In this document: positions 13,090 to 64,000 of the stretch, piece after piece
Position numbering within the stretch: position 1 is the stretch's first letter
Layout: each line of letters begins with the position of its first letter
Assembly (NCBI GenBank): GCA_963924555.1
Contig: OZ004583.1
Span: forward strand, 7,454,582-7,518,581
Origin: Crambe crambe
Taxonomy: Eukaryota; Porifera; Demospongiae; Poecilosclerida; Crambeidae
Length of the DNA: 64,000 nt
Reading direction: 5' to 3'
The notes under the pieces: generated by a model
Seen by the model: the letters and a program-made list of their open reading frames with translations, nothing else
What the model was told of the DNA's origin: nothing
Database searches by the model: none
Made by a program: the position numbers and the translations under genes

Positions 13090-13128
<39 letters not shown>

Positions 13129-16567: not shown

Positions 16568-19500
16568 ATGAGAAAGTACTTCCTTATCGGCATTCTGGTA
16601 CTGCTTATTTTCGAAGGTATAGCAATGGCTAGATTGTGTTGGAACTTTGTGTTTATGTGCATATAATTATGTAGCCTCCAGTGACTTTACATTGACATCT
16701 GATCCCTCTCCCTTGGGAGCTACTCTTTGCCCTGGACGACATGTCCGATTGTTCTGTAATGCTACCAACATTCGAACTTATGCTGTCAGATGGTTCTTTG
16801 GTGATTCCACAGAATATGCAAACAGAGCAATTGAACGAAATGAAGTTCTCCCTGAAGTAGTTCCTGTGCTCACCTCAAATCCTCCTATTCCTGGAGTGGA
16901 GATCGTATTAATCAAGTCATCTATTAATGCTCAAATTCAATATACCAGTTATGTATCAACTTTAACTGTTAATATATCAGTCTTCAATATGGAAGGACTG
17001 AGTTTCAAATGTGGAACTTTTGCAAGAAAGAGTAACACTATTGCTCTAAATTTCAGAATTTTAGGTTAGTGCTCTAAAGTATAAGAACAGTATAATGAAG
17101 AAAAGTTGTCATGAGGTAGTCAGTTAAGCTAGTATGATGCTTTTACTGTAGCTATACAGCTACTGTGTATAATTGTTAAACCATGCCCGAGGGCAGAGCC
17201 TGAGGGCAAATTGGCTGTACAGCATGAGGGTGAGGCATGGTCTATAACTGTTTTTAAAGCCTACAATGGAAATGTATTGGCTTCCTGTTATTGTCCTAAC
17301 TGCATCCTAGATGATATGAATAATACCTCGTACCTCCTTTGTTGGCTCAGCTAGACTATGTAATCCTGTATGTAGAGCAGTAGCCATGGTACCACAAGTA
17401 GGTTAAATAGCTTCATTGCTTGTCTAGCAAGTTAAGTATTACTATCGATTCCTAATTAATTGACAATGAACTTTACTGTTATTGAAGCACCCCGAGATCC
17501 ACGTCCCAATCGACTGATTCCAGTTTATAACAATTCTTATCAGCTTATTTCTCTCACAGCTACCTGGAGACAACTAATTGTGAGCAAGCAAAGCCAGCAT
17601 GTTTTATAGTTATATAATATTACATTCAAGGTGCTAATATCAACTTCTAACATGCTCAGTGAGCTTTTTTTTTTTGTCACTTATAAAATATTACCCTTGC
17701 AGCCAGAACCATGCCAAAGTGCATATCTCTACTACATCCTCATAAAAAGGAATAGAGTTTTTGAAGCTGAAAAGTTTGTTAGAGCGGCTGATGTGTGTAG
17801 TAACTCAGTGTGTTCGACTGAATTTCAAATTCATTCAGTTTCACAGCAATCAGAGGATTTATCTGTTAGCATTAAGAGTGGGGATATATTAAACCGTCAC
17901 GATGGAAGACTTTTGTCCTTTTCAGACACACTCAGTGAGTATTGATTACCGTATAGCGCTTTATTTTCGAGGTGCTTTATTTTCGAGGTTTTCGTGGATT
18001 TTGCTCAAGAAACAAAATTGTTGCCTCGAATAATTTTGCTTAGGCTAAGTAGCTAGCCACGTGTCTATGTACACGTATGTGCAATGCGTAAACTGTAGTA
18101 CAGTGCAGCTGTCATGACTCTCTGTCGTTATTTTAGCTCTTCAAAGCAACATACAAACCTTCCACTACCAGATCCTAGTGGTACAATGTCACTGACAGTT
18201 CATCCTCTTCTATTGAAGCAGTAAACTCTTTCGGAAAGTCTCCACCGTTTTGAAGCAAGATTTTTGTCAAATAAAAAGGCTGAAATAGGAAGAAGAGCAG
18301 TAGAACCTCCACTACGCTGGCAAATTCTCGGAGTGAGACAGCTCAAGGGGAGCTACAAAAGCATTCAATTCTATGTGTGTGCGCGCTATTAATTATTATT
18401 TTCATTTTTAGGCGGGGTTTAAAATTTTAATAATCCTTGAAAATTATTCCGCGAAATATTTAGAAATAGCTATCCTCGAAATATTAGTGCCTCGAAAATA
18501 GAGCGCTATACAGTATGTAGCTGAATGGTAACTCACCTAGCCTCGTTCCAAAAAAATAGGCCTGGGAACAAGGCTAAATCTCACCATGCAAGTGTGTGTG
18601 GCATCATCGTTTCCATAATTATATCATTATTCCTGTCTGACATAGATGCTAAATATCACCATGCAAGCATGTGTGGCATCATCGTTTCCATAATTATAGC
18701 ATTATTCCTGTCTGATATAGATGGGAACGATGCTAAATATCACCATGCAAGGCATGTGTGGCATCATCGTTTCCATAGATGCGTATATGCAGCTCTGAAA
18801 TTGTGCTACAATATCCATTTTTTATTTAATAGCTTACTTTTTCTCTTATTAATTTCTTCCAAGCTTCTGTTTATGGCTACACAAAATTTCCAGACTATTA
18901 TTATGGCCACTATAATTATAGCTACGTAAGTAGTTGTGAGTTAAGGTGAGCCAGAGTTTACAAAGTGGGAAAAAAATGGATATACTGTATCTATTCGACT
19001 TTAAACCAAACAATCAAACTGTAGTTATAATAATCACCCTTTGTTGTTGTCATGCTGTTGTTATGTTTTCGTTATTGTTGTTGTAATCCTGCAGAAAGTT
19101 CCATTAGCTCTAGCTTGAGGTTTTCGGTTATTGATGATGGTTGTACTGCTACACTTCGGTGTTCATACTTTACTACGACTGGGTGTACATTACAGTACAC
19201 TACAGACTCTTCATATGAAGACCTTATTGGTTCTCCACTTAGTGTCCCATTTGATGGATTAACCCTTCACAGACAATCCAATACCTACTTCTTTCAAATT
19301 ACAGTAAGCGTCAGAGCTACCTTGAGAATCCTCTATCAAGGAACATTCACCTGGATAACAGGACCTGGTAAAATCCTTAATTTTCATAGTGCTCATGCAG
19401 ACTCTATAATGTAGCTATGCATGATAGCTAACTGAAGTCTATTTGCATTCACCTTGCCCCTTTATAACTGCTTAGATTCTTGACCAAATTTCAGACTCCA

Positions 19501-20210
19501 GCAGAGAGAGTGGATAATCAGCTCTCTGTTAATCCAATGAACTAAAAGTTATAACAGTTATAATAGTGAATGATCAAGGGGCAAGGTGAGCTCTGTAATA
19601 CTAGTAAACAACATTTGTATGTACCAAGAAGTGATATTTTTTTGTATAATTATATGCACAGTTCCCGTGATTGAACTCATGCCAATATATGAGAATGGAC
19701 AATTGAATCAACTGAGAGTGCAGTGGAGGCAACAAGTGAAATTAACTTGCTAACTACATAATTATAATGGCTGATCTTATGACTACTTTTTATCCTTCAG
19801 GTTGGGTCTCCATCTCCATCTAAGAGATGTCAAATACTAAACTACACAGTGGTCCTGGAGAACAGCACAAGGGTGAGGGTGGATATGAGGATGATCAACT
19901 CTGACAGCTGCAGTGATGACCTTTGCTCCATATCCTTCCCCATCTCCTCACCAGACCAAAGGTATTTTGTCACTGTTAATGTTGAAGGAATCTATGGATC
20001 AACTAGCAACATGACATCTCTAAGTGAGCATGATTTTTTTTATATTACAGTCATGTTCATTTTGTCACTGTTAATGTTGTAGGAGTCTCACGATCAACTA
20101 GCACCACAACACCTCCAAGTGAGCATGTTGCGAATTCATTAGCCATGCCAACAATTTTAATTGATCTAATCACCCCTGCCTATATGTTCCTTCAGATATC
20201 AGTTCCCTGA
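16568..20210 (+). CDS. Gene A: Ig-FN3-module-FN3 receptor with altered C-terminus
   Basis: Eight exons, about 486 residues: 16568-16616 signal peptide (MRKYFLIGILVLLIFE); 16675-17064 Ig-like (LCPG, LFCNAT, VRWFF, LSFKCG); 17488-17579 + 17703-17934 FN3 (opens APRDP, then TWRQLI); 19095-19367 cysteine module (CSYFTTTGCTLQY, SSYEDL); 19662-19735 + 19801-20023 FN3 (CSDDLCSISFP); 20083-20210 tail. All phases close. Compared with gene B, the tail exon has lost seven codons and gained two bases (CCTATATGTTCC against CTTATGTTCC), so the frame ends FLQISVP-stop before the hydrophobic anchor. A might be secreted, or an alternative acceptor (CCTTCAG before ATATCAG) may restore an ending SSLILMIGGLLLTVAY. 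It lacks the first two membrane exons of its relatives. The intron after the first FN3 carries a MITE and a tandem repeat. Confidence 0.72.
17949..18513. mobile_element. MITE with TATAGCGC termini inserted in gene A intron
   Basis: A 565-bp element whose left end CCGTATAGCGCTTTATTTTC and right end (reverse complement CTGTATAGCGCTCTATTTTC) form terminal inverted repeats flanked by TA. The equivalent intron of gene B (near 23999-24012) has the uninterrupted sequence, an empty site. No open frame of note is inside. Confidence 0.75.
18538..18576. mobile_element. Miniature hairpin related to the TAGCCTCGTCCC foldback
   Basis: TAGCCTCGTTCC and GGGAACAAGGCTA face each other across about 14 bp. The termini match the larger foldback at 13526-13653, so this may be a deleted relic of the same family. 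Confidence 0.45.
18578..18780. repeat. About 70-bp tandem repeat, three units
   Basis: The unit starts ATCACCATGCAAG and includes GTGTGGCATCATCGTTTCCA and TTATTCCTGTCTGA. Three copies lie in the gene A intron; gene B has a single copy at about 24063-24130. The expansion therefore followed the A/B split, or contracted in B. Confidence 0.75.
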
Positions 20211-20640: not shown

Positions 20641-20847
20641 CTTAAATTTAAACCTGCTAGAGAGCAGTTGAGAAGCTGTGGTGGTAGATCCCAGTCACCC
20701 TGTCTCCTACAAGTGGCACTCGATCATGACAGAGGAAGGAATGAAACCTTCATCATAATAGTAGGTGACATAATCCCTCTCCTTCGTGCCATTGGTTGCC
20801 ATGAAATGGCCATCAATGGGAGGCATAGGATCACCACAATCAACTAA
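20641..20847 (-). pseudogene. Sushi-module fragment copied from gene 2
   Basis: The minus strand from 20847 reads VDCGDPMPPIDGHFMATNGT, nearly identical to the third sushi exon of gene 2 (13363-13178). A conserved Cys is replaced (YYYDEG in place of YHCDEG), and a small insertion near 20720 (CACTCGATCATGAC against CACTCATGAC) breaks the frame. No signal or membrane exon is linked to it. Confidence 0.75.
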
Positions 20848-21105
20848 TGTAAGGTTCAACATAATTGTTATGTAACTGAAGTCTATGGATGTTCTGATAG
20901 TAGTTCTGATGGTAGTAAGTATGTACGTATTAAAAGGTAATCCATGCCAGTCAAACATATATAATTATAATCTGAGACAATTCTAGGTGTTATAGGGATG
21001 CCCTCTAGTTCATTTCCATTATGGTAGGAGATTCATAAAAGATGAACCTCAATGATGATCAGTTACGTATAGTCAATCTACTGTGTATTAGCTACGTAAT
21101 TACCG

Positions 21106-21320
21106 AATATGATGTTTGGCAATGTCTGGGGCCTGCTCTGCAAAGTGACATTCCAAGGAGAAGAGTAAACGACAATGGCTGTAGGATACCACAGTGAAAT
21201 GGACTCAATCATGATCCTGTAGCTATCTACAACAGCCTCTGGGCCATTGCCAGGTGGTGGGTTTAAGAGTCTGTTGTAGTTCCTGGAAATTTTGAAGCCA
21301 GTTGGCTCAAGTGGTGCTAC
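21106..21320 (-). pseudogene. FN3 fragment copied from gene 2 with internal deletions
   Basis: The minus strand matches the FN3-2 exon of gene 2 (14037-13750): APLEPTGFKISRNYN, then NPPPGNGPEAVVDSYRIMIE. It has lost the strand between SRNYNRL and NPPPG and a second stretch after SPWNVTL. The remaining frame joins SPWNVTLQ to a non-homologous end. Confidence 0.7.
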
Positions 21321-21487
21321 AGAACAGGAAAGAAGTTGAGGTACGTACGTAGGCAGGTAAAGATCAGGTACAGGGGAGATGGGAATGGAGATACTGTTGA
21401 AAAAGGTCACTTACCCACCGTGTTTCGTTTTTACTTTCATTGTTAATGTACGTGCCAAAAATGAAAATGTAGTTATTAAAAAGCTTA

Positions 21488-21660
21488 TACCTGATTTATC
21501 AAATAATACAATCAAACTTTCACTATTGAGACTTCCAATGCTGCATTCCAGCTCAGCTTCATTCATGTGGTCCCACTGGAATGTGACAGTAGTGTTAGAT
21601 GTTGTGTCATATCTTCTTGAAATGTGGAGATTGGCTGGTATGAAAGGTACTAAAATTATA
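21488..21660 (-). pseudogene. Chimeric FN3-Ig fragment of gene 2
   Basis: On the minus strand, the beginning of an FN3 exon (VPFIPANLHISRRYDTT... TFQWD, as at 15376-15107) runs directly into the end of an Ig exon (MNEAELECSIGSLNSESLIV, as at 14729-14361). The two halves come from different exons of gene 2 about 1 kb apart and in the wrong order, so this is a recombination scar rather than a working exon. Confidence 0.7.
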
Positions 21661-21739
21661 TAGAAACCATAAGTAACTATGTAGCTATTCATAATAGTAA
21701 TATGTAACATGTTTGTAGCTAGCAATGGCTTATATACCT

Positions 21740-22645
21740 GAAGAATTAATATTAAGAATCTCCAATCACTAGAAGAGAAGTGGTGTTATTGCAGAAGGGG
21801 TGAAGATGTAGGGGATATGATCATGTGAAAGCAAGAAGTGTGCGATAGAATGGTTTCATTTTTCGTGTCAAAGCCAAAGGGAAAATGATACTACCATAAT
21901 TGTAGGGAAACTGTAAAATAATCAGTTGTATTTGTATTTCAGTTGTGCCACCAATATTACAAAAACAAACAAACAAAAAAATTTAATAACAACAAAAAAA
22001 CAACAATACAATACAATGTGACAATAATAATGTATAGCTAACATGTTCAATCAAAGGGTACAACCGACTTGCAATAATTACATAAAGCACAACAATTTTA
22101 TCAATTGTACTAATGTCTGATTCGGGGGGGGGGGGGGGGGGGGGGGGGGGGTCATTATCATGTTAATTGGAATACTGAGTTGATCGTATTTTTGCCTCAA
22201 ATATCAGCTGATGACTCGTTCCTGTATTCTAAACCGACTTGACAATTGTTTTTTTCCTTTATTTCTGCATAATAAAACCCGACTGATTCTTGGACATTAA
22301 AGTTAAAATTCCCTATCGATCTAGTCACCAGCACAACCAACCACAACCAAGAGTGCTCAGTAGGTTGCCAGCTCTTTCTGTTGGTAGCTGCAAGCCACAA
22401 GGATCTTCTGCTGTAAAAACTGACACCACAGTCTCTGTAGGATAGCCTAGACCAACTGCACAAGCATAGCCGCCACTCAGCATGGCCGGCCGGCCGCGCG
22501 TATAATGATTACATCATGCGTGACGTAAATCGAATAAGGTCTAGTCGCGTCTGACACTTTGCGACGCATAATAATGCGCATGCGCATAAAAGCGCAGTAG
22601 ACGCCTCCAGCTAACTAGTTAGCTAGCTCCTCGATGTGAATAAGT
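21740..22645. other. Upstream region of gene B with poly-G tract and CpG-rich promoter
   Basis: Mostly non-coding. It contains A-rich low-complexity DNA (21960-22015), a poly-G run (about 22123-22151), CCGGCCGGCCG near 22486, TGACGT near 22521 and the NRF1-like ATGCGCATGCGCAT at 22574-22587. The last 100 bp match the spacer upstream of gene A. No exon was recognised. Confidence 0.45.
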
Positions 22646-25645
22646 ATGGGAAAGTACTTCCTTATCAACATTCTGGTACTGCTTATTTTCGAAGGTATAG
22701 CTAGCAATGGCTAGATTGTGTTGGAACTTTGTGTTTATATGTGCATATAATTATGTAGCCTCCAGTGACTTTATATTGACATCTGATCCCTCTCCCTTGG
22801 AGGGAGCTACAGTTTGCCCTGGACATGTCCACTTGTTCTGTAATGCTACCAACATTCAAACTGATGTTGTCAGATGGTTCTTTGGTAATTCCACAGAATA
22901 TGCAAACAGAGCAATTGAACGAAATGAAGTTCTCCCTGATGTAGTTCCTGTGTTCACGAGCTCAAATCCTATTCCTGGAGTAAAGATTTTATTAATCAAG
23001 TCATCTACTGCTCAATTTCAATATACCAGTTATGTATCGACTTTAACTGTTAATATATCAGTCTTCAATATGGAAGGACTGAGTTTCAAATGTGGAACTT
23101 TTGCACAAAAGAGTAACACTATTGCTCTAAATTTCAGAATTTCAGGTAGCTAGTGCTCTAAAGTATAAGAACATGCAGTGTAGCTAAGAAAAAAGTTGTC
23201 ATGAGGGTAGCTAGTTAAGCTAGTATGATGCTTTTACTATAGCTACAGCTACTGTATTATGATAGTTAAACCATGCCTGAGGGCAGAGCCTGAGGGGCAA
23301 AGGCTGTACAGCACGAAGGCATGGTTTAACTGTTTTTAAAGCCTACAATGGAGATGTATTGGCTTCCTGTTAACCGTATCCTAGGTAATATGAATAATAC
23401 CTCACACCTCCTTTGTTGGCTCAGCTAGACTAGTATGGCATAATAATTATTATAGAGCAGTAGCCATGGTACTACAAGTAGGCTTTAAATAGCTACTTTG
23501 TATTACTATCGATTCCTATTATTGACAATAAACTTTACTATTATTGAAGCACCCCGAGATCCACGTCCCAATCGACTGATTCCAGTTTATAACAATGCTT
23601 ATCAGCTCATTTCTGTCACAGCTACCTGGAGACAACTAATTGTGAGCAAGCAAAGCCAGCATGTTTTATGATAATTATTATATTAAAATCCAAGGTGCTA
23701 ATATCAACTTCTAACATGCTCAGTGAGCTTTTTTGTCATCTAATATTTCCCTTGCAGCCAGAACCATGCCAAAGTACATATCGCTACCACATCATCATAA
23801 ACAGGAATAGAGTTTTTGAAGCTGAAAAGTTTGCTATAGCGGCTGATGTGTGTATTGACTTAGTGTGTTCGACTGAATTTCAAATTCGTTCAGTTTCACA
23901 GCAATCAGAGGATTTTTCTGTTAGCATAAAGAGTGGAGATATATCTAACCGTCACAATGGAAGACTTTTGTCCTTTTCAGACACATTCAGTGAGTATCAA
24001 TTATTGTGTAGTTGAATGGTAACATAGCTAGTGTGTTAAAATCCAAACAGGAGAAAGATTAATTTCACCATGCATGTATGTGTGGCATCATCGTTTCCAT
24101 ATAGCATTATTCCTGTCTGACATAGATGCGTACATACAGCTCTGAAATTGTGCTACAACATTTATGCTTAATAGTATTTACTTTTTCTCTATACTATTAT
24201 TAATTGCTGATGCTTTGATTAATTTCTTCCCAACTTCTGTCTATGTCTACACAAATTTCCAGACTATTATTATGGCCACTATAATTATAGCTAAGTAGTT
24301 GTGAGTTAAGGTGAGCCAGAGTTTATAAAGTGGAAAAAAATGGATATACTGTATCTATTCGACTTAAAAATCAAACAATCGAACTGTAGTTATAATAATC
24401 ACCATCTGGTATAATAGTTGTTGTCATGCTGTTGTTGATGTTTTCGTTATTGTTATTGTAATCCTGCAGAAAGTTCTATTAGCTCTAGCTTGAGGTTTTC
24501 GGTTGTTGAAAGTGGTTGTACTGCTACACTTCAGTGTTCATACTTTACTACGATTAGGTGTACATTACAGTACACTACAGACTCTTCATATGAAGACCTT
24601 ATTGGTTCTCCACTTAGCGTCCCATTTGATGGATTAACCCTTCACAGACAATCCAATACCTACTACTTTCAAATTACAGTCAGCGTCAGAGCTACCTTGA
24701 GAATCCTCTATCAAGGAACATTCACCAGGATGACAACAGGACCTGGTAAAATCCTTAATTTCCATAGTGCTCATACAGACTCCATAATAGCTATGCATGA
24801 TAGCTAACTAATGTCTATAATCATGCATTCACCTTGCCCCTTGATCATTCACTATAACTGCTTATAATCAACTCTCTGTTGATCCAACAAACTAAAAGTT
24901 ATAGCAGTTATAGTGAATGATAAAGGGGTAAGGTGAGCTCTGTAATACTAGTTAACGTCATTTTTACCAAGGAACTGATATTTTTTTGTATCTTTCATAT
25001 AATTATACGCACAGCTCCACAATCTCCCATGATTGAACTCATGCCAATATATGAGAATGGACAATTGAATCAACTGAGAGTGCAGTGGAGGCAACAAGTG
25101 AAATTAACTTGCTAACTACAGTCATAATTATAATGGCTGATCTTATGACTACTTTTTTATCCTTCAGGTTGAGTCTCCACCTAATAATCCATCTGATATG
25201 TGTCAACTCCTAACCTACTCAGTGGTCCTGGAGAACAGCAGAAGGGCGAGGGTGGATATGAGGATGATCAACTCTGATAACTGCAGTAATAGCCTCTGCT
25301 CTATATCCTTCCCCATCTCCTCACCGGACCAGTATTTTGTCACTGTTAATATTGGAAGCGTCTATGGATCAACTAGCAGCATGACATCTTTAAGTGAGCA
25401 TGATATTTTTTTTTATATATTACAGTCATGTTCATTTTGTCACTGTTAATGTTGTAGGAGTCTCTCAATCAACTAGCACCACAATATCTGCAAGTGAGCA
25501 AGTTGCGAATTCCTTAGCCATACCAACAACAACTTTAATTATAGATGCTACATCAGATGGTCTAATCACTCCTGCTTATGTTCCTTCAGATATCAGTTTC
25601 CTGATTATGATGATTGGTGGACTTCTTCTGACAGTGACTTACTAG
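22646..25645 (+). CDS. Gene B: Ig-FN3-module-FN3 receptor with C-terminal anchor
   Basis: Tandem copy of gene A, about 510 residues. Exons: 22646-22694 signal peptide (MGKYFLINILVLLIFE); 22759-23145 Ig-like; 23550-23641 + 23758-23989 FN3; 24470-24745 cysteine module; 25015-25097 + 25168-25393 FN3; 25458-25645 tail. The tail is Ser/Thr-rich and then PSDISFLIMMIGGLLLTVTY-stop. The end has no basic cytoplasmic residues, as in a GPI-attachment signal or a minimal tail anchor. The segment resembles membrane segment 3 of gene C (SGISFLITIGGLLFAVAHN), so B appears to descend from a three-pass ancestor that lost segments 1 and 2. The first 30 bases of the tail exon repeat the end of the preceding FN3 exon. 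Confidence 0.8.
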
Positions 25646-26298: not shown

Positions 26299-29200
26299 AT
26301 GAGAAGGTACTTCCTTGTCATCATTCTGCTGGTAGCACTGATCATTGAAGGTACCCGGCTAGTGTATTGGCTTTATTAGCAACCTTCATTGTCCATTATT
26401 ATAGCCTCCTTCGGTGGCTTTTCATTAACATCTGATCTTAACTTGGAGGGAGCTACAGTTTCCCCTGGATATGTCCAATTGCTCTGTAATGCCACTAGTA
26501 TTCGAACTGATGTTGTCAGATGGTTTTTTGGTAATTCCACAGAATATGCAAACAGAGCGATTGAACAAAATGAAATTCTCCCACAAGTAGTTCCTGTACT
26601 CACCACAAATCCTATTCCTGGAGTGGAGATTGTATTAACCAAGTCATCCATCAATGCTGAATATCAATACACCAGTTATGAATCAACTTTAACTGTTAAT
26701 TTATCGGTCTTCAATGTGATGGAAAGATTGAGTTTCAAATGTGGAAGTTTATCACAAGAAAGTAACACTATTGCTCTAAATTTCGGAGTTGAAGGTAAGT
26801 GTATTGGCTTTATTAGCAACCTTCATTGTCCATTATTATAGCCTCCTTCGGTGGCTTTTCATTAACATCTGATCTTAACTTGGAGGGAGCTACAGTTTGC
26901 CCTGGATATGTCCAATTGCTCTGTAATGCCACTAGTATTCGAACTGATGTTGTCAGATGGTTTTTTGGTAATTCCACAGAATATGCAAACAGAGCAATTG
27001 AACAAAATGAAATTCTCCCACAAGTAGTTCCTGTACTCACCACAAATCCTATTCCTGGAGTGGAGATTGTATTAACCAAGTCATCCATCAATGCTGAATA
27101 TCAATACACCAGTTATGAATCAACTTTAACTGTTGATTTATCGGTCTTCAATGTGATGGAAAGATTGAGTTTCAAATGTGGAAGTTTATCACAAGAAAGT
27201 AACACTATTGCTCTAAACTTCGGAGTTGAAGGTAATCAGCTATAACAGCTAATATCTAGCAGAACAATGGAGTGTCCTGACTCCAATACTGAAGGGAAAG
27301 CAGCTTCAGAGGTAGCTAGGTAGCTAATATAGATAGCATGGCCCGGTGCAGAGGTTCATATGTTATATACACAAGCTGGTTACAAGGTTCTACGTATGTA
27401 GCTATCATTTCATCATCATCTTACTAACTTGTTTAAAATAGATAGTTAACTAAACTTTACTTTGTCTTTTAATTTATTATAGCACCTCAAGACCAAAGTT
27501 CCAATCAATTGATTGCACTCTATAACAGCTCTTATCAGCTCATTTCTGTCACAGCTACCTGGAGACAACCAATTGTGAGCAAGCAAAATCATATACATAA
27601 TTATCTTATACAGTGAGCATTACTGTCACCTAAAATGACTGTTTCCTTGCAGTCAAGACTATGCCCAGGTGTATTTTTCTACAACATCAGCCTTAGAAGG
27701 AATGGAAATTTTGAAGATGAAAAATTCATCAGATGCAGTAACTCAACGTGTTCCGCTGAATTTCAAATTGATTCAGCTCAATATCAATCAGAGGATATGT
27801 TTTCTGTTAGCATAAGATTTGGAGATAGGTTCAATCATTATAATAGAAGCTATTCAGCCTTCCCAGAAACATTCGGTGAGTATTATCACATTATAATCAG
27901 CGAAATACAATCAAGCTAGAGGGCATGACTTATGTGTACAATATGGCCAATGATTAATTCATATACGTAGCTAATTCCAGTCATTTAAACATACACCATG
28001 CATAATGCATGCCATAAGCAATCAAGCTGTACAGAGTTCTCCACTGAAAAACTGAGCACATTTAGCCAGTAACTAGCTAATTAGTAAAAAATCTATGAAT
28101 GCATTAAAAAGCAATAATGATGGATGCATGCATGTCAGCTCATTAGTATATTTTGTGTAGGGAGCCTGTAAGGAATTGTTGTTAATGTTGTTATTGTGTT
28201 GTAATCCTGCAGAAGCTTCTATTAGTAATAGTTTGAACTTTTCGGTCACTGAGGAAGATTGTACTACTAGACTTCATTGTTCGCTTAATGAGACTGGGTG
28301 TATGATACAGTACAGTCAAGATCCTTTATATGAAGACCTTGGTCCTCCACTTGTCATCCCACTCAATGGATTAGACATTCACAGGCAATCCACTGCCGAC
28401 TACTTTCAAATCACAGTCAACACCGAAACTACCCTAAAAATCCTATTTCAAGGAGTATTCATCAGGACAGAACTTGGTAAAATTCTTTCATAAGAATCAC
28501 AGTATATGAATAAAGATTCGTAGTAAGCATAAGAAAGTAATGCTATAAGGGTGGTGATACAGAAATGTTGGTAAGGGTGTAGTCTTGGTAACTCAGAAAC
28601 TTATAGTATACCCTAGTGAGTTTTTGTGACATGTAGCTAACATGGTCTCTTCTAACAAAGCACACTGTCAACTCAAACTCCCCCTCCTTCCTTCCCTCCC
28701 TCCCTCCCTCCCTCATTCCACCCCCCTCCTTTCCTCCCTCTCCAAAATAATATTCTATCAATAGAACTTCCTCCTTCCCCTTCTTCTGCTACCTGTTCTC
28801 TTATCCGCACCACTGGAGGTCCAGAGGTCTCCATCCAATGGTCCTCCTCCTTCACCTCTCAGTATGTCGTGGAGATGTATCATGTAGAAGTGAACCCTGC
28901 CACCCCCTCCTGTTCCAGTAACCAGACAATGGTGAGTGATTCTGTGTTGGACTATTTTAAGTACAAAGTGACTAAAATTATAGCTGTATATTAAACGTAG
29001 CTGGCTGCATGTATCTGAAGGGCAGATCAGAAAAAAGGGCCAGTAAAATTACTAGGGAGTCACCCCCATTATTACCACATAGCTATATAATTTATATTAA
29101 GATTTGAGGTACTGTACATCGTATTTATTTCCTTGTTTATGGTAGAAATCCAATGAGAGTTACAGGTGCTCTGGTCTGGTCCTGGGGACACACTACTCTT

Positions 29201-36448: not shown

Positions 36449-36481
<33 letters not shown>

Positions 36482-39078: not shown

Positions 39079-39299
39079 AAACTTTTATTACTAGCTAAAC
39101 ACTTTCACGATTGTTTATGTCTCCAGCCCAGTCAGCAATCTTTTATACTTTATAGAATTGTATCACCTAATTATGTACGTATTATCTTATATGGTTATGA
39201 TTTATCTTGTGTCCTGATTGGTTGATTTGTGTGCTACTGTATATACCTTATGTAGCTACGTATGTGTGTTCATCTCTAGCTCTCTAGAGTCTTGCTTTT

Positions 39300-47468: not shown

Positions 47469-50400
47469 ATGAAAAATTACTTCCCCATCAACATTCTGCT
47501 GGTACCACTGATCTTTGAAGGTACAGCACGCTAAATAGCTTGCTAATTTCTATTGGCTTGCATGTATTGGATTATTACAGCCTCCAGTGACTTTACATTG
47601 ACATCTGATCCTTCTAACTTGGAGGGAGCTACAGTTTGCCCTGGATATGTACAATTGTTCTGTAAGGCTACCAACATTCAAACTGAATTCGTAACATGGT
47701 TTTTTCATAATGGCACAGTTTATGCAACCAGAACACATAGAGTCAATGAAGTTCTCCCTCAAATAATTCCTCCTCGAAACCCTATTCCTGGAGTGGAGAT
47801 TGTATTAACCAAATCATCTACTGATGAATATCAATACACCAGTTATGAATCTACTTTGATGATTAATTTAACACTCTTTAAGAATGTCAGGGAAAGATTA
47901 AGTTTTAAGTGTGGAATTTCTACACAAAAAAGTGGCTCTATTAATCTGAATTTCCGTGTTGCAGGTTAGTAGCTACTTTAGCTAACAAGAGTAGAACAAT
48001 GGACTGCTTCAGAGGTAGCTAGCTAGCTAGACAGCTCATTACAGCTAGCTAGCTATAGCTACATGCTTTAACCAAATTGGCAATAAATTTTTTGCTTATT
48101 ATAGCACCTCGAGATCCAAGTCCAAATCAAATTATACCAGTGTATAACAGTTCTTACTTGCTCACTTCTGCAAAAGTTACCTGGAGGCAACCAATTGTAA
48201 GCAAGCAACCATGTACTAATAATTATGTAGCTAGTCAATACATTACATATTATGATTGTATAAAAGCAAAAGAAGAAGAAGGAAGTATAAGTGCTTTTGT
48301 CTTCTCAAAATATATTTCCCTTGCAGCTAGAACTATGCGCAAGGGTATTTTATTACCATATCTACTTATTCGCTCGACATTTTGTAGTTGAAAACATCCT
48401 TGGAGCTAACATGTGCCATAACTTAATATGTTCCACTGAATTTCAAATTATATCGATAGATCAAATCCGAATGGGTGATGTATTATCTGTTGGATTAACG
48501 AGTGGGGATATATATCGCCATAACTTGGGAAACAGATTTCAAATTTTTCCGAATACATTCAGTGAGTATCATAATTTATTAGCTATGTGTTGCTATAGTA
48601 ATCAAAACCCAGGTGATGGCCAATAATAAATTTCCCTATAGCTAGTTTTCCGATATGTATGCAGTGCGATGGATGATAAGAAATTGATATTGATCAGACA
48701 ATCACACAATGTCCCCACAAAGTATAATTTGTCCTAACATTTAACTGGACATAGCTACGTAGAATGTGTATTTTGATAAGTACTTTTGTCCTGACAAACA
48801 AATAATGTCCAGACATAATATTGGCCAGAAAATGTCAGATGTCAGGCTGTTGTCATATGAGCTTGTGTATGTACAGCTGTTTGAACTTGTTGATCACTAT
48901 AGGGTTTACCATTAAATTTTGTTTGTTTATTTTTTAGCTTAGCTATAGGTGAGCTGAAGCATTGTAGCTAGTGAAGATAATGATAATTGCTGGTCCATTT
49001 TTTGACATGCTAAATCACACATAACTAGATTTTGCAGCATGTACGCTAGCTATAGCATACATGTAGCTGCAGCCAGCATTAATTGACTCAGCAACAAGGA
49101 ATACTCAATGAACTCCCTCACTGGTCTGCTGCCTGGAAATAAGTCAATCAACCTTGATCTCTATTAGAAGACACTATTAAAGATTCCAACTATAAGTGAC
49201 TCCCAAGTTGTATAACATATTATACAAGTAACAATTATCAGCTATCGAAGCATTATGGCAACGTGCATGAGAATTAGAGAATTCAAGCATAGCATCCATT
49301 ATAAATAATAATTTATTATTCTATAGCTCTCTAAAATGAGACAATTTGATTGGTCCATGTGACATGTGATATAAATACTCGTGTTACATGCCTGCGTATG
49401 CACATGAATTATAGTTGCCCTAGCCCTAGCACTCTAGCCCAGGGCAGTAAGGTTTGCTAGTTTTAGCGAGGATGAAATTGAAATATTCCTGTATGATAAA
49501 GATAGTGAGAACACTAAAAAGATCTACTACGTAAGCTTGCAGTAGGAATATTCAAGAGATGAACCGTCCTTGTCCCATCAACCACTTGCACTCCGAGAAC
49601 CTCTCCAGGTCCATTTTAGAGAGCTATAGGATAAATCAATTAATGCACCCTTCAGTATAATGGAATACCATGATTTATTACACCCTCGGTGGGGAATATT
49701 GCCCAACTCGTATGGTTACATACTGAAGGGTGAATATAATTATTATCATTGCTATTATTAGCTAAATGCTAATTCCACAGATGTTTCTATTAACCCTGGA
49801 TTGAACTATGTGATCACTGAGAACACTTGTAATACTAGACTTCATTGTTCATACTTTAATAAGACTGGGTGTCAGATACAGTACAGTCGAAACCCTTCAT
49901 ATCAAAACCTTGGTTCTCCTTTTGACATCCCAAACAATGGATTAGAACTTCACAGGCGATCCACTACCAACTACTTTCAAATCACATTTGATTTTAATCC
50001 TGGTGTCAAAATTCTATATCAAGGAGTATTCTTCAGGACAGAACTTCGTGAGAAACATAATAATAATAATAATTAGAATATTATTATAAGTATGCTGATG
50101 ATAGTACAACTAACTAACTCCAAGTAGTCAAAGCGCACTACCTCTCCCTCTCCCTTCCTACCTCCTACTCTCTCTCCCTCCCTCCCTCCTACTCCCTCCC
50201 TCCTCCTCCCTTTCTATCAATAGAAGCTCCTCCTTACCCTTCATATGCTACCTGTTCTCTTGTCCGCACTACTGGAGGTGCAGAGGTCTCCTTCCGGTGG
50301 TCCTCCACTTTTTTCATCCCTCTGTATAACGTAGAGATGTATCGTATTATTATAGAATCGAGCCGTCAAACCTCTGCCACCCCCTGTTCCTATGATCAGA

Positions 50401-52479
50401 CAATAGTAAGTCTGTTCTTGTCTGTACAGGAGTATTATGTATAATAACAAGAGAGGCTGAGCAATTCTGAAGTATGAAGTGACAAAACTGTAGTTATAGT
50501 TGGCTGCATACACTAAACTATAGAAGCATGCTTTTGATGGGGAATTAATTATTACTGTTATAATTCTAGCTGTACCCATTTGTTTGTTTGTTTGTTGTTT
50601 GTTTAGGTTATTGGTAATTTGTTGTTGATTTTTGTTTGTCTTTTTTTTTTTTTTTTTTTTTTTGTTCTGTAGCTATCATACATACAGAGCTGTGTTTCAT
50701 TTTTTTGTATTATCTTCATAGAGATCCAATGAAAGATACAGGTGCTCTGGACTGCACCTGGGGACAAACTACAACTTCTATGTCAGTGCCATCAACTGTG
50801 GGGGTAGAGAAGGGGCCAGCAACATTTTCCAGATCACGCTTAAAGGTATCGATGAATAACAGAATTTAAAAAAATAATTAGCTAATAATTATGTATGCTC
50901 CCCCCCTTTTTTTACATGAGTGCAAAAAAATTCTTCTAAATAAAAATGTTAAGTATAGGGATATTAGCAAATGAATTCAACATCCTTCCCTCTTCTGTGT
51001 ACATAGATGTAGTATTTCATTGTAGCCTTCTAAGAACCTGTAGAGTAAGGGTAGAAGAAAAAGAAGATTATACGTACACTATGGCCTTTGACCCACCATC
51101 CCTATACTTACAGAGCTATAGAGATATAAAAATTTTAAATGCAGCTCCTACTGATGCTAGAATTTTTCCTATGTATGGTCAGAATGGACGACTAAGTAAA
51201 GTGACAGTGCAGTGGATGCGGCAGGTTAGACACACTGTGTATAGCAGCTTCAGTGTAATACCATAAATCACATTTTCCCCCTTCAGGTGCGCTTTTCTGA
51301 TAAATGCTCTTTTAATCAACTCCCAGACTACAGAGTTGTCCTGCATGACAACACAAGAAAAAGAATGGATCAGAGGATGATCAGACCTGGTAGCTGCAGT
51401 AGTAATAACCTCTGCTCCATCTCCTTCCCTTTCTCCTTGTCAGATCAACCAGACCCAAGCTATTCTTTTAGGGTTGATATTACAGGAACCTTTGGATCAA
51501 CTAGCACTTCCACATCTCTAGGTCAGTTGATTTATAAATGTGCAGGTCATGTGTGACCGATCAGATCCTTCAAAATATTATAATTAATGTGCATGTGTAT
51601 CAATCAACCGCACATTTCACATGTGGAACTGTGCTGAATTTAGGACCAACCTTTTACGCATTATAGCATACATTCCACAGTGTTTCCAACGTGTAATACA
51701 GAGATTTTATACATAGCTAACTGTGACATTATGGTAGCCCACTCATAGCACTCATCATAACCACATAGGAATGTTAGCACCAACTCAAATCTGATTGTGC
51801 AGTGTACATTACACATGTAGCTGTGTTAATTTGAAAAGCTGATATTTGAATTACATTATTATTGATCATGAGACAATAATTATTGATCGGGTTGCTAGGG
51901 CCCGAGTAGGCATGATGGTGAGTATTACAACCTTGTGTATGTGCTGGGGGTTGTAATACGAGTGAACACTAGGTATTAATTTGTGATTATTCCTTTACTG
52001 ATTAGATGCTAGTAAAGTCCCATTTTCCGTTGATGTTCCCATCTCCTCTGAGGGCTGTGTGACATCCATCCTCTGTTCCTACCATATGTGATTCTTCCAA
52101 TATGGCCGTGACTCTTCTTACCAGAACTTGAGCCTTTCATTGTCTATCTCCCTCAATTCCCTTCTCCAAATAACTGTCACAGATGCTGCTACAATCCATT
52201 ATTATCAGATGACTTACAATACTTCCATTTACGTTTTTCAGGTCAGAGGAAACTTCACTTCTGGTAAGGGTGAGTTAGAACATAATTATACCTACACATG
52301 ATGACATCATGTTGATGTGTGTAGCTGTACAGTTGACATCTGCAAATCAAGGTCTGGTGGTTGTGGGTGTGATAGCATTAATATTTGGAGCCATTATACT
52401 TGGAGTGATCATTACATGGATGTTAATTAATAAAGGTATGATTCAATAGATATAATATGACTTCTTCACTTCAGTTGGT

Positions 52480-52513
<34 letters not shown>

Positions 52514-53048
52514 ATTTTCGTTCATCTTATTGTTGTTGTTTTTTCCCTCTAGGACCATGGCTATCTCTGGGTTTCTCTGTGACAGGATTTGTAGTAGCAT
52601 TGTTATCTCTTGTGTTATGGGTGGCAGTGGGAGTTCATGTTGGACTGCCAAGTAAGCATTACTCTTTTTCTCAGATTAGTATTAATTCCTTTGTGCACAT
52701 GCAGATACATGTGATCCTACTTGGCAATCTTCTAGAAATGGTCTCATCAACTCAGCCCATGTTTTCTCAGACATCAATTTCCTGATAGCAATTGGTGGAC
52801 TCCTTGTTTCTGCTATTCACTACAAATTTAAAGGTGAAACTGACGTGATGTGCACTTAAATGAAAGATGATTAGCTAGCTAGCTACTCAATTGACCAATA
52901 ACTAAATTTTTTCCATTACAGTAAACCTACACTAGCTATAATTATTTGAATGGATGCAGGTAAACAATCGAAGAAAAAGGATCAGGTTTCCAGCCCCCCG
53001 ACTTCTGAGGATGTCCTAGGTGATCTTGGATCAAGAAAAATATATTGA
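47469..53048 (+). pseudogene. Gene F: copy of D/E with an in-frame stop before the membrane
   Basis: Exons: 47469-47520, 47581-47964, 48105-48196, 48327-48561, 49781-50047, 50224-50405, 50722-50845, 51145-51224, 51287-51521, 52006-52269, 52325-52435, 52553-52651, 52705-52833, 52960-53048. Splice sites and phases match D and E. In the second cysteine module, TGC (Cys in CSYHMCFFQYG) is TGA at 52089-52091, ending the protein after about 578 residues and before all membrane segments. Other changes: Leu to Pro in the signal peptide (MKNYFPINILL), a weaker FN3 donor (GTCAGT for GTGAGT at 51522), a lost codon at the end of segment 2, and a changed tail (VLGDLGSRKIY). It is either a pseudogene or a secreted ectodomain; decay by nonsense-mediated mRNA decay is also possible. 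Confidence 0.75.
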
Positions 53049-55594: not shown

Positions 55595-55596
55595 TA

Positions 55597-57378: not shown

Positions 57379-60300
57379 ATGGATGAGAAAAAGTGCTTTT
57401 TTATCTTCAATACCCTATTATCATTGATATTCAAAGGTAAAATAGCTAGTTTGCTAGTTCTAATGACTCAAGCTAGCTAATCATCCCCTGTATAAACTCA
57501 CTAGTTATATATATATAGTCACTATAGTTTTGAAGTTATAAACTCTGTATACATGTAGCCTCATGTAATTTTCTATTGACATCTGATCCTTCCCCCCTTG
57601 AGGGAGCATCTGTCTGTCCTGGATCTATTCATCTACACTGCATCGCCAGCAATGTCAATGTGGATGCTGTCCGATGGTTTTTCAGTAGGAATGCAATGAA
57701 TAGCATGGTCTTTGCAGACAATGCTTTTGATAACAATGAAATTCTCCCCAGACCAATTCGTTTAGTAGAAGTGGTTCCCGGAGTGGAAGTCATCCTGGCC
57801 AAATCCTCCATCAGTGATGATAAATATATTGGCTATGAATCGACCTTGACGGTCAATTTATCGGCTTTCAATGAAAGAGAATTGTTGAGTTTTACTTGTG
57901 GGACCTTTTCACAAAAAAGTAATAATATCTCTTTGAATTTCACAATTGCAGGTTGGTATTATGCAAGAGAGCTAGCTATAGCTATTGGTCAAGATGGAAG
58001 TCTAGATGCACCTGGCGATTGTAATTTCTGCTCCCCCACTCTATTTCTCCCTTCCCCCACGTCACCCTACTGTTATTGAATTAGCATAGTGGAATATACA
58101 CTCGCTAGCATTTAACGTTTCCCTCATTATCTAACCCCCCACTCTTTGAGTTCATCCTGCGTGGTTTGAACCATGTACCATACGTACATACTAGGCTACA
58201 TGAACCCATGGTATACGTATGCATGCAAGTTAGCTTAATTCTTGAAGGATTGAATTGTTATTATTATATATATCATGTTGCTTATCATAATTAAGATTTA
58301 GCAAGTTAAATACAGTATAGTGATATATAGCTGCATGGAATAAACTTTTTTTCACCATCATCATACATCATTGAAGCACCTCAAGATCCAAGTCCCGATC
58401 AACTCATTCCACTTTATAACAGCTCTTTTCTGCTCATTTCTGTCACAGCTACGTGGAGACAACCAATTGTGAGCAAGCATGTAATATGTAGCTAGCTAGT
58501 CAATTCAGATTGTTAAAAAGTGACGTTCTCAAGACAACAGGACCATATAGCAACCCAGCTAGTTAGATGTATAATATTATAATTGTAGTAAGAATTCAGT
58601 ATTGAATTTGTCACCTATAAAATGTTATCCCTTACAGCCAGAAAAATGCCCAAGTATTTTTCAATACCACATCCTCCTAAAAAGGAACGGGATCTTTGAA
58701 GACGAAAAGTTCATCAGAGCTGATGCGTGTAATGACTTAATGTGTTCCACTGAATTTCAAATTGATTCAGTTCAGTATGAATTGGAAGATATATTTTCTG
58801 TTAGCCTAAAGAGTAGTGATATATTTGGCAATTACAATGGAAGTTTATTCACCTTTTCTGATACATTCAGTGAGTATCATAGTGTATGTATATCATAGCA
58901 GTGTAGCTATTAACAATGAAAAATCCATGTTCTCAACGGTGAGCAATAACAGATGACTCCATGTGCTTACCCAACATGAAAACAATCTATAGTTTTGAAG
59001 GCATACTATTGTAGAAAAAGTAAACAGTACAATTTTTAAGAAATATCCATAGGTAATGCAATTTGAAATTCCCCCATGCACTCAGCACCTTTTGGCATTG
59101 TTGCTGTAATCATGTCATCATTGTTGACTTGTTGTAATCCTACAGAGAGTTCTGTTAGCACTAACTTGAACTTTTCATCGACTGATGACACTTGTACAAC
59201 TACACTGACTTGCTCATACCTTGATGAGATTGGATGTATGATACAATACAGTCAAAACCCTTCATATGAAGAAGACCTTGGTCCTCCACTTGTCATCCCA
59301 CTCAATGGATCACTAAAACTTCACAATCACAACAGGCAATCCACCACCTACTACTTCCAAATCACAGTCAACATCAGTGTTACCTTCAAAATTCAACTTC
59401 AAGGCCAGATAGAACTCGGTAGTTAGTGGAGTAGCTATACCTAGCCATATATATAGAGTTTGCATAACTTCATTATTCAGTGTGCAACTGCATGCTGGGT
59501 GCTCAGAAACAGATTCACTCCTGCAGTCATTATACAAAATATAATTAATTATACATAGCTAGCTACCGATGTTATTGATAATCATTATAGGTACGTATAT
59601 AAGTTGCTATTGATTCCTTTATCACTGATGCAGCTATTAATCGTCTCACCTCTTCCAATGAAGGATTACTGAGTGCTGGTGTGATTCTCCTCCTAATCAC
59701 AATTCCATTTGTCATTATCTTTCTCCTCTACTCATGGAGGATATATGGTCAAGGTGGATAGTATAATAATTATCACTAGTATTGTGCATTATGTAGCTAC
59801 ATAATACAGTACGGATAGTTCAGTATAGCAGCTAATAGTGTCAGCCTTCCTTATTCCCCTCCCTCCTATAATTATAGTAGAAAAACATTTTCAAACTGGA
59901 CTGATCATCTGTGCTGTTGTCAAAACAGTAGCTGTCATCTCTTGTTTTGTGTTGTGGATTGCCATTGGTCTGGTTATTGGACTGCAAAAAGGTATTATTA
60001 TACTGCACTAAAGAAAACCCTTTTCCATGTTGTTCTATAGCACATAAATCCTATTATCTATGGCTAGCTAAAATTGTTTTCTCTTTGCAGGTTCCTGTGA
60101 TTTGAGTTGGCAGTCCACTAGAAATGTCCTCCTTGCTTCTTCTTTTGTCTTTACGCTCGTCACTTTCGTTCTGGTCATGACTTCAATTGGGACAGCTTGT
60201 TCAACTCGAAGTAAAGGTGTGTTTAATATCATGCATGCTCTCAGCCTTGTCTATGGCTATAGCTGAATAGGATGAAAGCTGCAAACCACTATTAGCTATA

Positions 60301-61277
60301 AAACAAGTTCTTATCAACTATACATTGTCAATATAAAAGCTAATAATAATAATACAACTAGCTAGTTGTTATGTAGCTATAGCTCTAGCACAAGTCAAAC
60401 TATCTTTATGCTTATTGGAGCAGGTAGAATTATGTCCTTATTGAAGAAAATGAAAAGAAAGAAAATCTCTATTGATGAGACTGGCACAACAGCTGAAATG
60501 AAACCTCAAGATCACACCTCTGATTCAGAGCTCTCAGAAAGAAAGGGAATTGATTCAGTTCCTAATGAGAAACATGAAAGTGTAGATTTGGAGCTCTCAG
60601 AAAGAAAGGAAATCAAGGCTTTATATTCAGTTCCTAATAAGAAACATAAAAGTGTAGATTCAGAGCTCTTGAAAAGAAAGGAAAGAAAGGGAATTGATTC
60701 AGTTCCTAATAAGAAACATGAAAGTGTAGATTCAGAAAGAAAGGAAAGAAAGGCTTTGTATTCGGTTCACAATTCAGAGCTCTCAGAAAGAAAGGGAATC
60801 GAAGCTTTTCCTGAACATGAAAGTGTAGACGATGATAAAGTAATTCAAGCAAGAAAAATTCAACAGTGTGATCACTTTCACAAGGAAAGTATAAATTATT
60901 CAACCAAATTAGAAGGAGGAAGCTCACTGCCTCACTATTCTTCCATACAAAAAGCAATGGTTCTGGAAATCCTCTTGTATGACCTACCACGAAAAGAAGA
61001 AATTCCATCACACAAGTCTCCTCAGGAAGAAGAGATGATACAAGAAAATCCAATGTACAGCTGCCTCCCTCGACAGGAATACAACTGCATCAAAGAAGAG
61101 GAACAAGAGAATCCAGTATACAGCCTCCCTCGAGAGGAATACAACCCCATCAACGAAGAGGAACAAGAGAATCCGGTGTACAGCCTCTCTCGAGAGGAAT
61201 ACAACCCCATCAAGAAGCTGTGTAATAAAGATCCTAGTGAAAAGGTATCTTCCAGCTATAGTAGAAAGGGTGAATGA
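57379..61277 (+). CDS. Gene G: Ig-FN3 three-pass receptor with NPxY/YNxI tail repeats
   Basis: Nine exons, about 751 residues: 57379-57436 signal peptide (MDEKKCFFIFNTLLSLIFK); 57559-57951 Ig-like (VCPGSIHLHC, VRWFF, LSFTCG); 58377-58468 + 58638-58869 FN3; 59146-59418 cysteine module (CSYLDEIGCMIQYSQNPSY); 59634-59747, 59878-59991 and 60091-60216 membrane segments; 60424-61277 tail. It has only one FN3 and one cysteine module. The loop before segment 3 has SCDLSWQSTRN. The 284-residue tail starts with a basic stretch (KKMKRKKIS), then about four Ser/Lys/Glu units of the SELSERKGIDSVPNEKHESV type, then three 20-residue units with ENP(M/V)YS and EYN(C/P)I. NPxY binds PTB domains and YxxI motifs can bind SH2 domains or sorting adaptors in other animals. 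The unspliced tail is one open exon. Confidence 0.82.
61041..61220 (+). repeat. Three 60-bp coding repeats with tyrosine motifs
   Basis: Each unit encodes (Q)ENPxYSxxxRxEYNxI plus an acidic spacer (KEEEQ or NEEEQ). Period is 60 bp (20 residues), giving six tyrosines in regular spacing: NPxY, then eight residues on, YNxI. The DNA copies differ mostly at silent or conservative sites. Confidence 0.85.
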
Positions 61278-61521: not shown

Positions 61522-64000
61522 ATGGATGAGAAAAAGTGCTTTTTTATCTTCAATACCTTATTATCATTGATATTCAAAGGTAAAATAGCTAGTTCTAATG
61601 ACTCAAGCTAGCAAATCATCCTGTATAAAATCTGTATACATGTAGCCTCATGTAATTTTCTATTGACATCTGATCCTTCCCCCCTTGAGGGAGTGTCTGT
61701 CTGTCCTGGATCTATTCATCTACACTGCATCGCCAGCAATGTCAATGTGGATGCTGTCCGATGGTTTTTCAGTAGGAACGCAATGAATAGCATGGTCTTT
61801 GCAGATAATGCCTTTGAAAACAATGAAATTCTCCCCAAATCAATTCGCTTAGTAGAAATGATTCCCGGAGTGGAGGTCATCCTGTCCAAAACCTCCATCA
61901 GTGACGATAAATATATTGGTTATGAATCGACCTTGACAGTCAATTTATCAGCATTCAATGAAAGGGAGTTGAGTTTTACTTGTGGGACCTTTTCACAAAA
62001 AAGTAATAATATCTCTTTGAATTTCACAATTGCAGGTTGGTATTATGCATGAGAGCTATAGCTATTGGTCAAGATGGAAGACCTGGCGATTGTAATTTCT
62101 GCTCCCCCACTCTATTTCTCCCTTCCCCCACCCTACTGTTATTGAATTAGCATAGTGGAATATATACACTCGCTAGCATTTCACGTTTCCCTTATTGTCT
62201 AACCCCCCGGCCCACTCTTTGCGTGGTTAGAACCATGTACATACATGCTAGACTAGTTACATGAACCCATGGTATAATGCATGCAAGTTAGGTTAATTCT
62301 TGAAGGATTGAATTCTAGCTATATATTCACGTTGCTTATCGCGCATATCATAATTAAGATTTAGCTAGCAAGTTAAATACAGTATATAGTGATATGTAGC
62401 TGTATGGTTGGTAATAAACTTTTCTTCATCATCATACATCATTGAAGCACCTCAAGATCCAAGTCCCGATCAACTCATTCCACTTTATAACAGCTCTTTT
62501 CTGCTCATTTCTGTCACAGCTACCTGGAGACAACAAATTGTGAGCAAGCAAAACATATGTAGCTAGTCAATTTTAGCTACATTATGATTGTAATAAATTA
62601 TTTAAAAGTGGCATCTGGTTTGATGTATATAGTGAGAATTCAGTATTGAATTTATCACCTATAAAATGCTATCCCTTGCAGCCAGAACCATGCCCAAGTA
62701 TTTTTCTATACCACATCCTCCTAAAAAGGAATGGAAACTTTGAAGATGAAAAGTTCGTCAGATCTGATGTGTGTAATAACTTAATGTGCTCCACTGAATT
62801 TCAAATTGATTCAGTTCAGTATGAATTGGAGGATATATTTTCTGTTAACCTAAAGAGTGGGGATATATTTGGCAATTACAATGGAAATTTGAACTTTTCA
62901 GATACTTTCAGTAAGTATATCATAACAATGTATTAGTTTACGTGCCAATTCCATGCATGTTCTCCACGGTGAGCAATAACAAATGACTGTATGTGATGTG
63001 CTGATCCAACATGAAAGTAATCTATTAAAGACATGTACGTAGTTAGTTTTGAAGGCATACTATTGTGGAAAAAGTAAACAGTACAATTTTCATGGAATAT
63101 CCATATGTGTAGCTAGCTACATTGGTCCTATAAGGTAATGCAATTTGAAAATTTCCTTGTACACTAAACACCTTTTGGCATTGTTCTGTAATCATGTCAT
63201 CATTGACTTGTTGTAATCCTACAGAGAGTACTGTTAACACTAACTTGAACTTTTCATTAACTGATGACACTTGTACAACTACACTAACTTGCTCATACCT
63301 TGATGAGATTGGGTGTATGATACAGTACAGTCAAAACCCTTCATATGAAGACCTTGGTTCTCCACTTGTCATCCCACTCAATGGATCATTAAAACTTCAC
63401 AATCACATCAGGCAATCCACCGCCTACTACTTCCAAATCACAGTCAACATCAGTGTTACCTTCAAAATTCAACTTCAAGGCCAGATAGAACTCGGTAGTT
63501 AGTGGAGTAGCTATAGCTAGCTATTATAGAGTTTGCATAACTTCATTATTCATTGTGCAACTGCATGCTGGGTGCTCAGAAACCGACAAATAATCATGCG
63601 TAGCTACTGATGCTACTGACAATCATTGTACGTAGCTATATAGGTTAATATTGATTCCCTTATCACTGATGCAGCTATTAATCGTCTCACCTCTTCCAAT
63701 GAAGGATTACTGAGTGCTGGTGTGATTCTCCTCCTAATCACAACTCCATTTGTCATTATCCTGCTCCTCTACTCATGGAGGATATATGGTCAAGGTGGAT
63801 AGCTGATTGCATAATAATTATCACTTGTATTGTGCATCATGTAGCTACATATACAATGGGAATTAAATCATAGTTCAGTAATAGTGTCAGCTTAACTTAC
63901 CCTTCCTTATTCCCCTCCCTCCTATAATTATAGTAGAAAAACATTTTCAAACTGGACTGATCATCTGTGCTGTTGTCAAAACAGTAGCTGTCATCTCTTG
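61522..64000 (+). CDS. Gene H: tandem copy of gene G, cut by the window end
   Basis: Exons seen: 61522-61579 signal peptide; 61646-62035 Ig-like; 62448-62539 + 62682-62910 FN3; 63225-63494 cysteine module; 63675-63788 first membrane segment; 63934 onward, second segment, running off the window. The signal peptide is identical to that of G. Substitutions are denser in the Ig and FN3 exons (for example RLVEMIPGVEVILSK against RLVEVVPGVEVILAK) than in the membrane exons. The third segment and tail are not in the window. No disabling change is seen in the visible part. Confidence 0.8.

Follow-up and report, generated by a model that had tools for sequence, protein, structure and literature searches.

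A tandem multigene family of receptors, combining immunoglobulin (Ig) and FN3 domains with three transmembrane (TM) exons, occupies a 64,000-nucleotide stretch of the sponge Crambe crambe, referred to here as the window (contig OZ004583.1, here C5; C5:7454582-7518581; genome of 143 Mb in 119 contigs). We consider it probable that these genes encode a lineage-expanded family of three-pass Ig-FN3 cell-surface receptors, which would keep their tails inside the cell and signal through tyrosine phosphorylation. A tandem family with three membrane exons had been proposed in a sequence-only reading of the window, and we found the complete TM1-TM2-TM3 triplet at 26 of the 28 loci with a TM3 match in 264 kb, a region made by joining the window to the 200 kb downstream (positions above 64000 refer to it). 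The gene letters used below are our own and differ from those of that reading. The anatomy is real and unusual; Ig receptors are nearly always single-pass.

The exon order was signal peptide, V-type Ig, FN3 domains each spread over two exons, one or two cysteine modules, TM1-TM2-TM3 and tail. Gene C (26299-31761, plus strand) provided the cleanest model and is complete; genes D, F and G are built on its plan. Its exons, all on the plus strand, are:
26299-26350, signal peptide
26405-26794, Ig
26842-27231, second Ig exon
27483-27574, e2, FN3 half
27653-27875, e3, FN3 half
28213-28476, e4, cysteine module
28765-28931, e5, FN3 half
29146-29269, e6, FN3 half
29418-29497, e7, FN3 half
29554-29785, e8, FN3 half
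30325-30597, e9, second cysteine module
30658-30768, TM1
30830-30931, TM2
30993-31121, TM3, with a TCDASWQS loop
31628-31761, tail

The FN3 halves of gene C pair as e2/e3, e5/e6 and e7/e8, and its two cysteine modules, e4 and e9, matched one another in the BLAST table. Exon phases were 1-1 for Ig, 1-0/0-1 for the FN3 halves, 1-1 for the cysteine module and 1-1 for each of TM1, TM2 and TM3. The exon caller applied to the remaining genes sought GT/AG sites at these phases, and such sites were present for every exon queried in the window genes. The two Ig exons of gene C (26405-27231) stand in tandem and are almost identical; in the first, serine replaces the first cysteine of the CPG motif.

Within the window the full triplet was present in genes C, D, F, G, H and M, and in gene I with its TM3 past the window end. 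The 264 kb contained 28 TM3, 28 TM2 and 26 TM1 matches. TM2 lay upstream of 27/28 TM3 exons, both TM2 and TM1 lay upstream of 26/28, and TM1 was never unpaired. The exceptions were a relic in gene B (25547) and the locus at 103630, which has TM2 but lacks a TM1 match; an unpaired TM2 match at 131649 adjoins the match at 131618 and is probably the second piece of a frame-shifted exon. Exon calling was passed by 25 of the 26 triplets, which were listed. The signature TCDxxWQS, said earlier to be conserved between TM2 and TM3, is kept in the form CDxxWQS: CD was found in 25/25 listed triplets, the exact string in 16/25.

The block extends well beyond the window. A genome-wide search with TM3 (E up to 0.1) returned 97 matches, 95 on C5 and 2 on contig C9, those on C5 spanning 6,638,315-8,147,763 (~1.5 Mb; 61 on the minus and 34 on the plus strand). 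All 58 genome-wide TM2 matches were on C5, 53 of them followed by a same-strand TM3 within 450 nt, and 42 of the 95 C5 TM3 sites had no TM2 match at the E threshold. TM1- and TM2-like segments were recognised by eye upstream of TM3 in 10/10 sites from divergent regions (eight in L001-L008 and two in L034), and tblastn with other loci as queries recovered those of L004 as well. The TM triplet recurs across divergent clades. The loop pattern had 86 matches in the genome, 81 on C5, two on C9 and single ones on C6, C10 and C19; these last three were taken as chance, ~2 being expected, and a reversed-pattern control gave none. A profile of the membrane block had 0 matches among solved structures, and Pfam gave it sub-cut-off matches only. 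A truncated seven-transmembrane (7TM) adhesion receptor was rejected as an explanation, as Pfam showed no 7TM match for genes C, D and H or for that on C9. No fourth TM exon was noted in gene C, although no systematic scan was made.

The TM exons are under selection to stay hydrophobic, strong in TM1 and TM2 and weaker in TM3. Among single-base amino-acid changes in the 21-column cores, the polar or charged share was 0.00 of 115 in TM1 (0.20 expected), 0.02 of 150 in TM2 (0.18 expected) and 0.18 of 114 in TM3 (0.27 expected), and Ig, cysteine-module and e8 exons used as controls showed no bias against such changes. Since the comparisons share genes, the P values of this test are only indicative. 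On the strength of this test and its control exons, chance hydrophobic open reading frames (ORFs) were rejected as the source of the TM exons.

On another contig, two loci of C9 carry the same kind of membrane exons:
C9:2720500-2726500 (L033/L041 C9:2720500-2733500), L033, with Ig, FN3 without an intron, e8, cysteine module, TM1, TM2 and TM3
C9:2949000-2956000, L046, a second copy with its exons in L033 order, 92.9-100% identical exon by exon

After TM3, L033 continues with an exon for an I-set domain lacking cysteines, followed by juxtamembrane sequence, and then with tyrosine phosphatase exons, HC and SAGIGRTG lying on successive exons. The joined pieces matched PF00102 at 1.6e-55 and I-set at 1.8e-15. 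In L033 and L046 alike, TM1, TM2 and TM3 lie ahead of the I-set and phosphatase exons, and the C9 pair probably encodes three-pass receptor tyrosine phosphatases. These genes share with receptor-type protein tyrosine phosphatases (RPTPs) an FN3 domain and phosphatase exons in which SAGIGRTG comes after HC; unlike R3 RPTPs, described as single-spanning in the accessible part of PMC5336234, they have three TM exons. The I-set/juxtamembrane exon had at least 73 matches among the best 150 of 188 candidates, chiefly on C9 and C13 with none on C5, and the C9 TM2 used as query (E up to 1) found two places on C9 and three on C5. These results suggest that exon shuffling brought a head and anchor of the C5 type together with a phosphatase from C9. 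Genome-wide, PF00102 had at least 183 matches (best 150 of 601 candidates), with no C5 row among the matches listed. Very large tyrosine phosphatase clusters lie at C9:2.62-3.41 Mb, on C12 and at C13:3.59-3.87 Mb, and a C12 phosphatase locus (L043) has one strongly hydrophobic exon ahead of its phosphatase exons.

Tyrosine motifs also appeared in the putative cytoplasmic tails, which prove variable, as had been noted from the sequence. Motif-bearing ORFs of three kinds were found at most 2.6 kb behind 15/28 TM3 exons, versus 1/28 in a reverse-complement control. The first kind carries ENxVY motifs, with EYDY also present in 9/10. The second consists of EYSAL ORFs behind 128143 and 248360; behind 248360 (minus strand) seven such ORFs stand in a row, 6/7 also with YLPL and each followed by donor-like sequence, forming a repeated cassette. 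The third kind has ENPVYSLPREEYNPI-type repeats behind gene H, 64138 and 69883. The candidate for gene H is:
60366-61277, plus strand, tail ORF with three repeats around NPxY, two reading ENPVYSLxREEYNPI and one diverged, ENPMYSCLPRQEYNCI

We take the NxxY of these tails to resemble the phosphotyrosine-binding (PTB) domain consensus NPxY, and the YxxL presumably to resemble half an immunoreceptor tyrosine-based activation motif (ITAM). Given the co-retention of the triplet, the selection for hydrophobicity, the C9 phosphatases and the tyrosine tails, three-pass anchoring is likely and phosphotyrosine signalling by the cluster receptors plausible.

We infer the following arrangement from the exon series. 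The N-terminal V-type Ig domain would lie outside the cell, carried by a stalk in which FN3 domains are joined by cysteine-bearing modules that are FN3-like. The chain would cross the membrane at TM1, come back at TM2, expose a short outside loop with the conserved CDxxWQS, and cross inward again at TM3, which would leave the tail inside. The TM2-TM3 hairpin may act in membrane packing or in binding a partner. Outside, the receptors would recognise ligands that are perhaps microbial or self/non-self, and signalling would run through tyrosine phosphorylation, by way of ENxVY/NPxY and EYDY tails, YLPL...YSAL cassettes and, in the C9 pair, the phosphatase domain. With the tail inside, parity allows one or three passes only. 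Mean lysine plus arginine counts in 23 triplets (two with short TM2 calls were excluded) were 0.74 before TM1, 2.13 between TM1 and TM2, 1.83 between TM2 and TM3 and 1.30 after TM3 within the exon; the positive-inside rule backs this topology only in part, because only the contrast between the segment before TM1 and that from TM1 to TM2 is clear.

The TM exons could instead be alternatives, one being used per transcript or TM2-TM3 being skipped, so that the genes would encode ordinary single-pass Ig-FN3 receptors with isoforms. All three being phase 1-1, each can be skipped alone. Alternative splicing is also reported, in the available text, for Fester of Botryllus schlosseri, which has the same layout, though PCR had shown it to an extent that was not matched in the bulk transcriptomes that followed. 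Against this, TM2 and TM3 are kept together with TM1 at 26/28 loci and in divergent clades, omission of just one of the three exons would place the tail outside, and gene B, which is without TM1 and TM2, has lost the loop motif of TM3 too. We regard this single-pass alternative as rather unlikely.

The remaining window genes, including those with incomplete membrane blocks, are:
16568-20023, plus strand, gene A: signal peptide 16568-16616, Ig 16675-17064, FN3 halves 17488-17579 and 17703-17934, cysteine module 19095-19367, FN3 halves 19662-19735 and 19801-20023
22646-25393, plus strand, gene B (up to 25645 with the TM3-like relic): domain plan as gene A
32696-38859, plus strand, gene D: TM1 38351-38461, TM2 38572-38673, TM3 38731-38859; tail uncertain
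40377-45931, plus strand, gene F: TM1 45428-45538, TM2 45644-45745, TM3 45803-45931; tail uncertain
47469-52833, plus strand, gene G: TM1 52325-52435, TM2 52553-52651, TM3 52705-52833
57559-60216, plus strand, gene H: FN3 over two exons, TM1 59634-59753, TM2 59878-59991, TM3 60091-60216
61646-64000 (window end), plus strand, gene I: TM1 63675-63794, TM2 match from 63936, TM3 match at 64138, just beyond the window
10192-5727, minus strand, gene M: Ig, two rounds of FN3 halves plus cysteine module, TM1 6191-6075, TM2 6012-5905, TM3 5852-5727

Position 16568, where the sequence-only reading began, is the first base of the signal-peptide exon of gene A. Its mention of decoys is supported in that truncated copies are present, A, B and G being candidates. 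A search for TM exons in gene A found none, and this gene is a candidate soluble form or remnant. Neither TM1 nor TM2 was found in gene B, whose TM3-like relic (25547-25642) ends early and is without the TCDxxWQS motif. Gene G has an in-frame stop codon within its second cysteine-module exon (52006-52269) and is for that reason probably a pseudogene or truncated form. Genes H and I represent a short form with Ig, one FN3, one cysteine module and the TM exons; a signal-peptide exon was sought in both and not found. Gene M is a divergent member in which the TM triplet is still recognisable, and its joined frame is incomplete because some FN3 halves were not located.

Other features accompany the array. 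Retroelement remnants, presumably Copia-like, lie 3' of D (39218-39460), F and G, where similar ORFs are found, and seem to have been duplicated along with them. Inspection by eye showed minus-strand ORFs inside the array, at 12623-16176 and 20707-21785, in which parts resemble Sushi, Ig and FN3 domains; the latter stretch looks like a broken partial copy. A long GA/TC simple repeat occupies 4231-4524. Genome-wide there were 30 homeodomain matches; the four loci read, out of six, look NK/Msx/Bar-like, in keeping with a demosponge.

Several observations weigh against three-pass signalling receptors. TM3 is the least hydrophobic of the three segments (lowest best-19-residue mean 1.39), with weak hydrophobic selection (P 0.02). 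The TM2-TM3 segment, which would lie outside, is nearly as basic as those postulated inside (1.83 versus 2.13 and 1.30). The shared 1-1 phase means that skipping one exon, two exons or the TM2-TM3 pair preserves the frame, which makes a one-pass isoform possible. A signal-peptide candidate is lacking for 12/34 Ig exons. As to the tails, no motif was found for 13/28 genes, the motif patterns were selected after the tails had been read, and the tails are mostly known as ORFs, with junctions checked in gene C and, by eye, at the YSAL-cassette donors. Omega is as high as 0.91 in TM1 and 0.74 in TM3. Within BLAST-matched stretches no TM exon of the 264 kb has a stop, but TM3 at 197048, read to full query length, contains one, and TM2 of genes 131431 and 135276 (at 131618 and 135455) looks frame-shifted; genome-wide, a stop occurs in 1/97 TM3 and 1/58 TM2 matches.

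Such defects could mean that the cluster is largely a decaying repeat array, its copies mostly pseudogenes and its TM exons surviving through recent duplication. This idea draws on the stopped TM3 and two frame-shifted TM2 exons, the stop in gene G, the loss of TM1 and TM2 from A and B, the retroelement-like remnants near copies, and one stop each among matched Ig (35), cysteine-module (33) and e8 (30) exons. However, 0/26 TM1 exons of the 264 kb are stopped, defects in TM2 and TM3 are few, hydrophobicity is selected for and the triplet is common to deep clades. Pooled omega was 0.53-0.91 over all exon types (pairs with synonymous divergence, dS, of 0.03-0.6), below 1 throughout and with no sign of positive selection in the pooled data. 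General decay is very unlikely in our view.

The extracellular region bears on what these receptors might recognise. The Ig head gave a model close to V domains, with a V-set-like fold, and C27, W39 and C110 were invariant across the 10 window Ig exons; the head is divergent among family members. Hypervariability resembling complementarity-determining regions was rejected, entropy being 0.84 in strands and 0.68 in loops (13 Ig exons, one clade). Pfam fn3 (cut-off 25 bits) scored 28.8 in gene C and 32.4 in the C9 gene, fell just under in gene D (24.7) and had no match in gene H. The cysteine module, which had been called private, is tentatively FN3-like. No Sushi match appeared when genes C, D and H and the gene on C9 were scanned with Pfam.

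An allorecognition role is possible by analogy. The family is large and clustered and its Ig head divergent, yet omega is below 1 and the loops are no more variable than the strands. The receptors may instead serve innate immunity, in adhesion or microbe sensing, a reading we hold to be quite possible. Omega <1 and the absence of loop hypervariability suit ordinary pattern recognition, and Ig, FN3 and SRCR domains figure in published accounts of sponge immune repertoires (PMC4772301, PMC6208332; see also PMC12723187), the accessible portions of which do not mention a three-pass family. That reading is compatible with the three-pass receptors we favour, the ligand being the sole difference. In the accessible part of a survey of sponge G-protein-coupled receptors (GPCRs; PMC4302439), Ig and FN3 domains are listed on adhesion GPCRs only, and our literature search for an Ig-FN3 three-pass family found no description.

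Hydractinia Alr proteins are single-pass, and we know of no split FN3 exons or three-TM block among them. The sponge genes resemble the Alr recognition genes in being clustered IgSF genes with V-type domains; Alr is described, in the text available, as a 41-member family with V-set and I-set domains (PMC11999971). The closest parallel is Fester, a tissue-compatibility receptor of a sea squirt, for which the accessible text reports a signal sequence, Ig, Sushi, three TM domains and a short tail (PMC12065747), the TM domains being encoded by exons 8-10 (PMC3549757). The earlier statement that three-pass Ig receptors are not a standard metazoan class was thus too strong: as a kind they have already been described in Fester. 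Extracellular Ig, three TM segments on three successive exons and a multigene cluster are common to both. In uncle fester, the region of fester exons 6-11 is found on an unrelated 5' half, in the multigene cluster of the fuhc locus (PMC12065747, PMC3549757), and the stable membrane block under a divergent Ig head seen here recalls that relationship. Unlike Fester (Sushi, short tail, ~350 aa), the sponge genes have FN3 and cysteine modules, often tyrosine tails and, in two genes, a phosphatase. Since the membrane plan is the same, it is plausible that the family works like Fester, but the lack of a Sushi match sets it apart, and the comparison is one of described features. The Fester co-receptors of Botryllus (FcoR) also have a V-type Ig head and a tyrosine-motif tail, but differ in having one TM and Sushi and C2 Ig domains (PMC12065747, as far as its available text goes).

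A further proposal is a sponge histocompatibility-type locus, in which three-pass Ig receptors with tyrosine tails and like-headed three-pass phosphatases would form an activating/inhibitory system; we consider this unlikely. If it were true, the three-pass anchor shared with Botryllus Fester would either go back to an ancient recognition module of animals or be a striking case of convergence. With a second lineage that ties an Ig head to three membrane exons, both across a large gene cluster and in two probable receptor phosphatases, what the extra hairpin does becomes a testable question, and the genetics of self/non-self recognition in sponges gains a concrete candidate locus.

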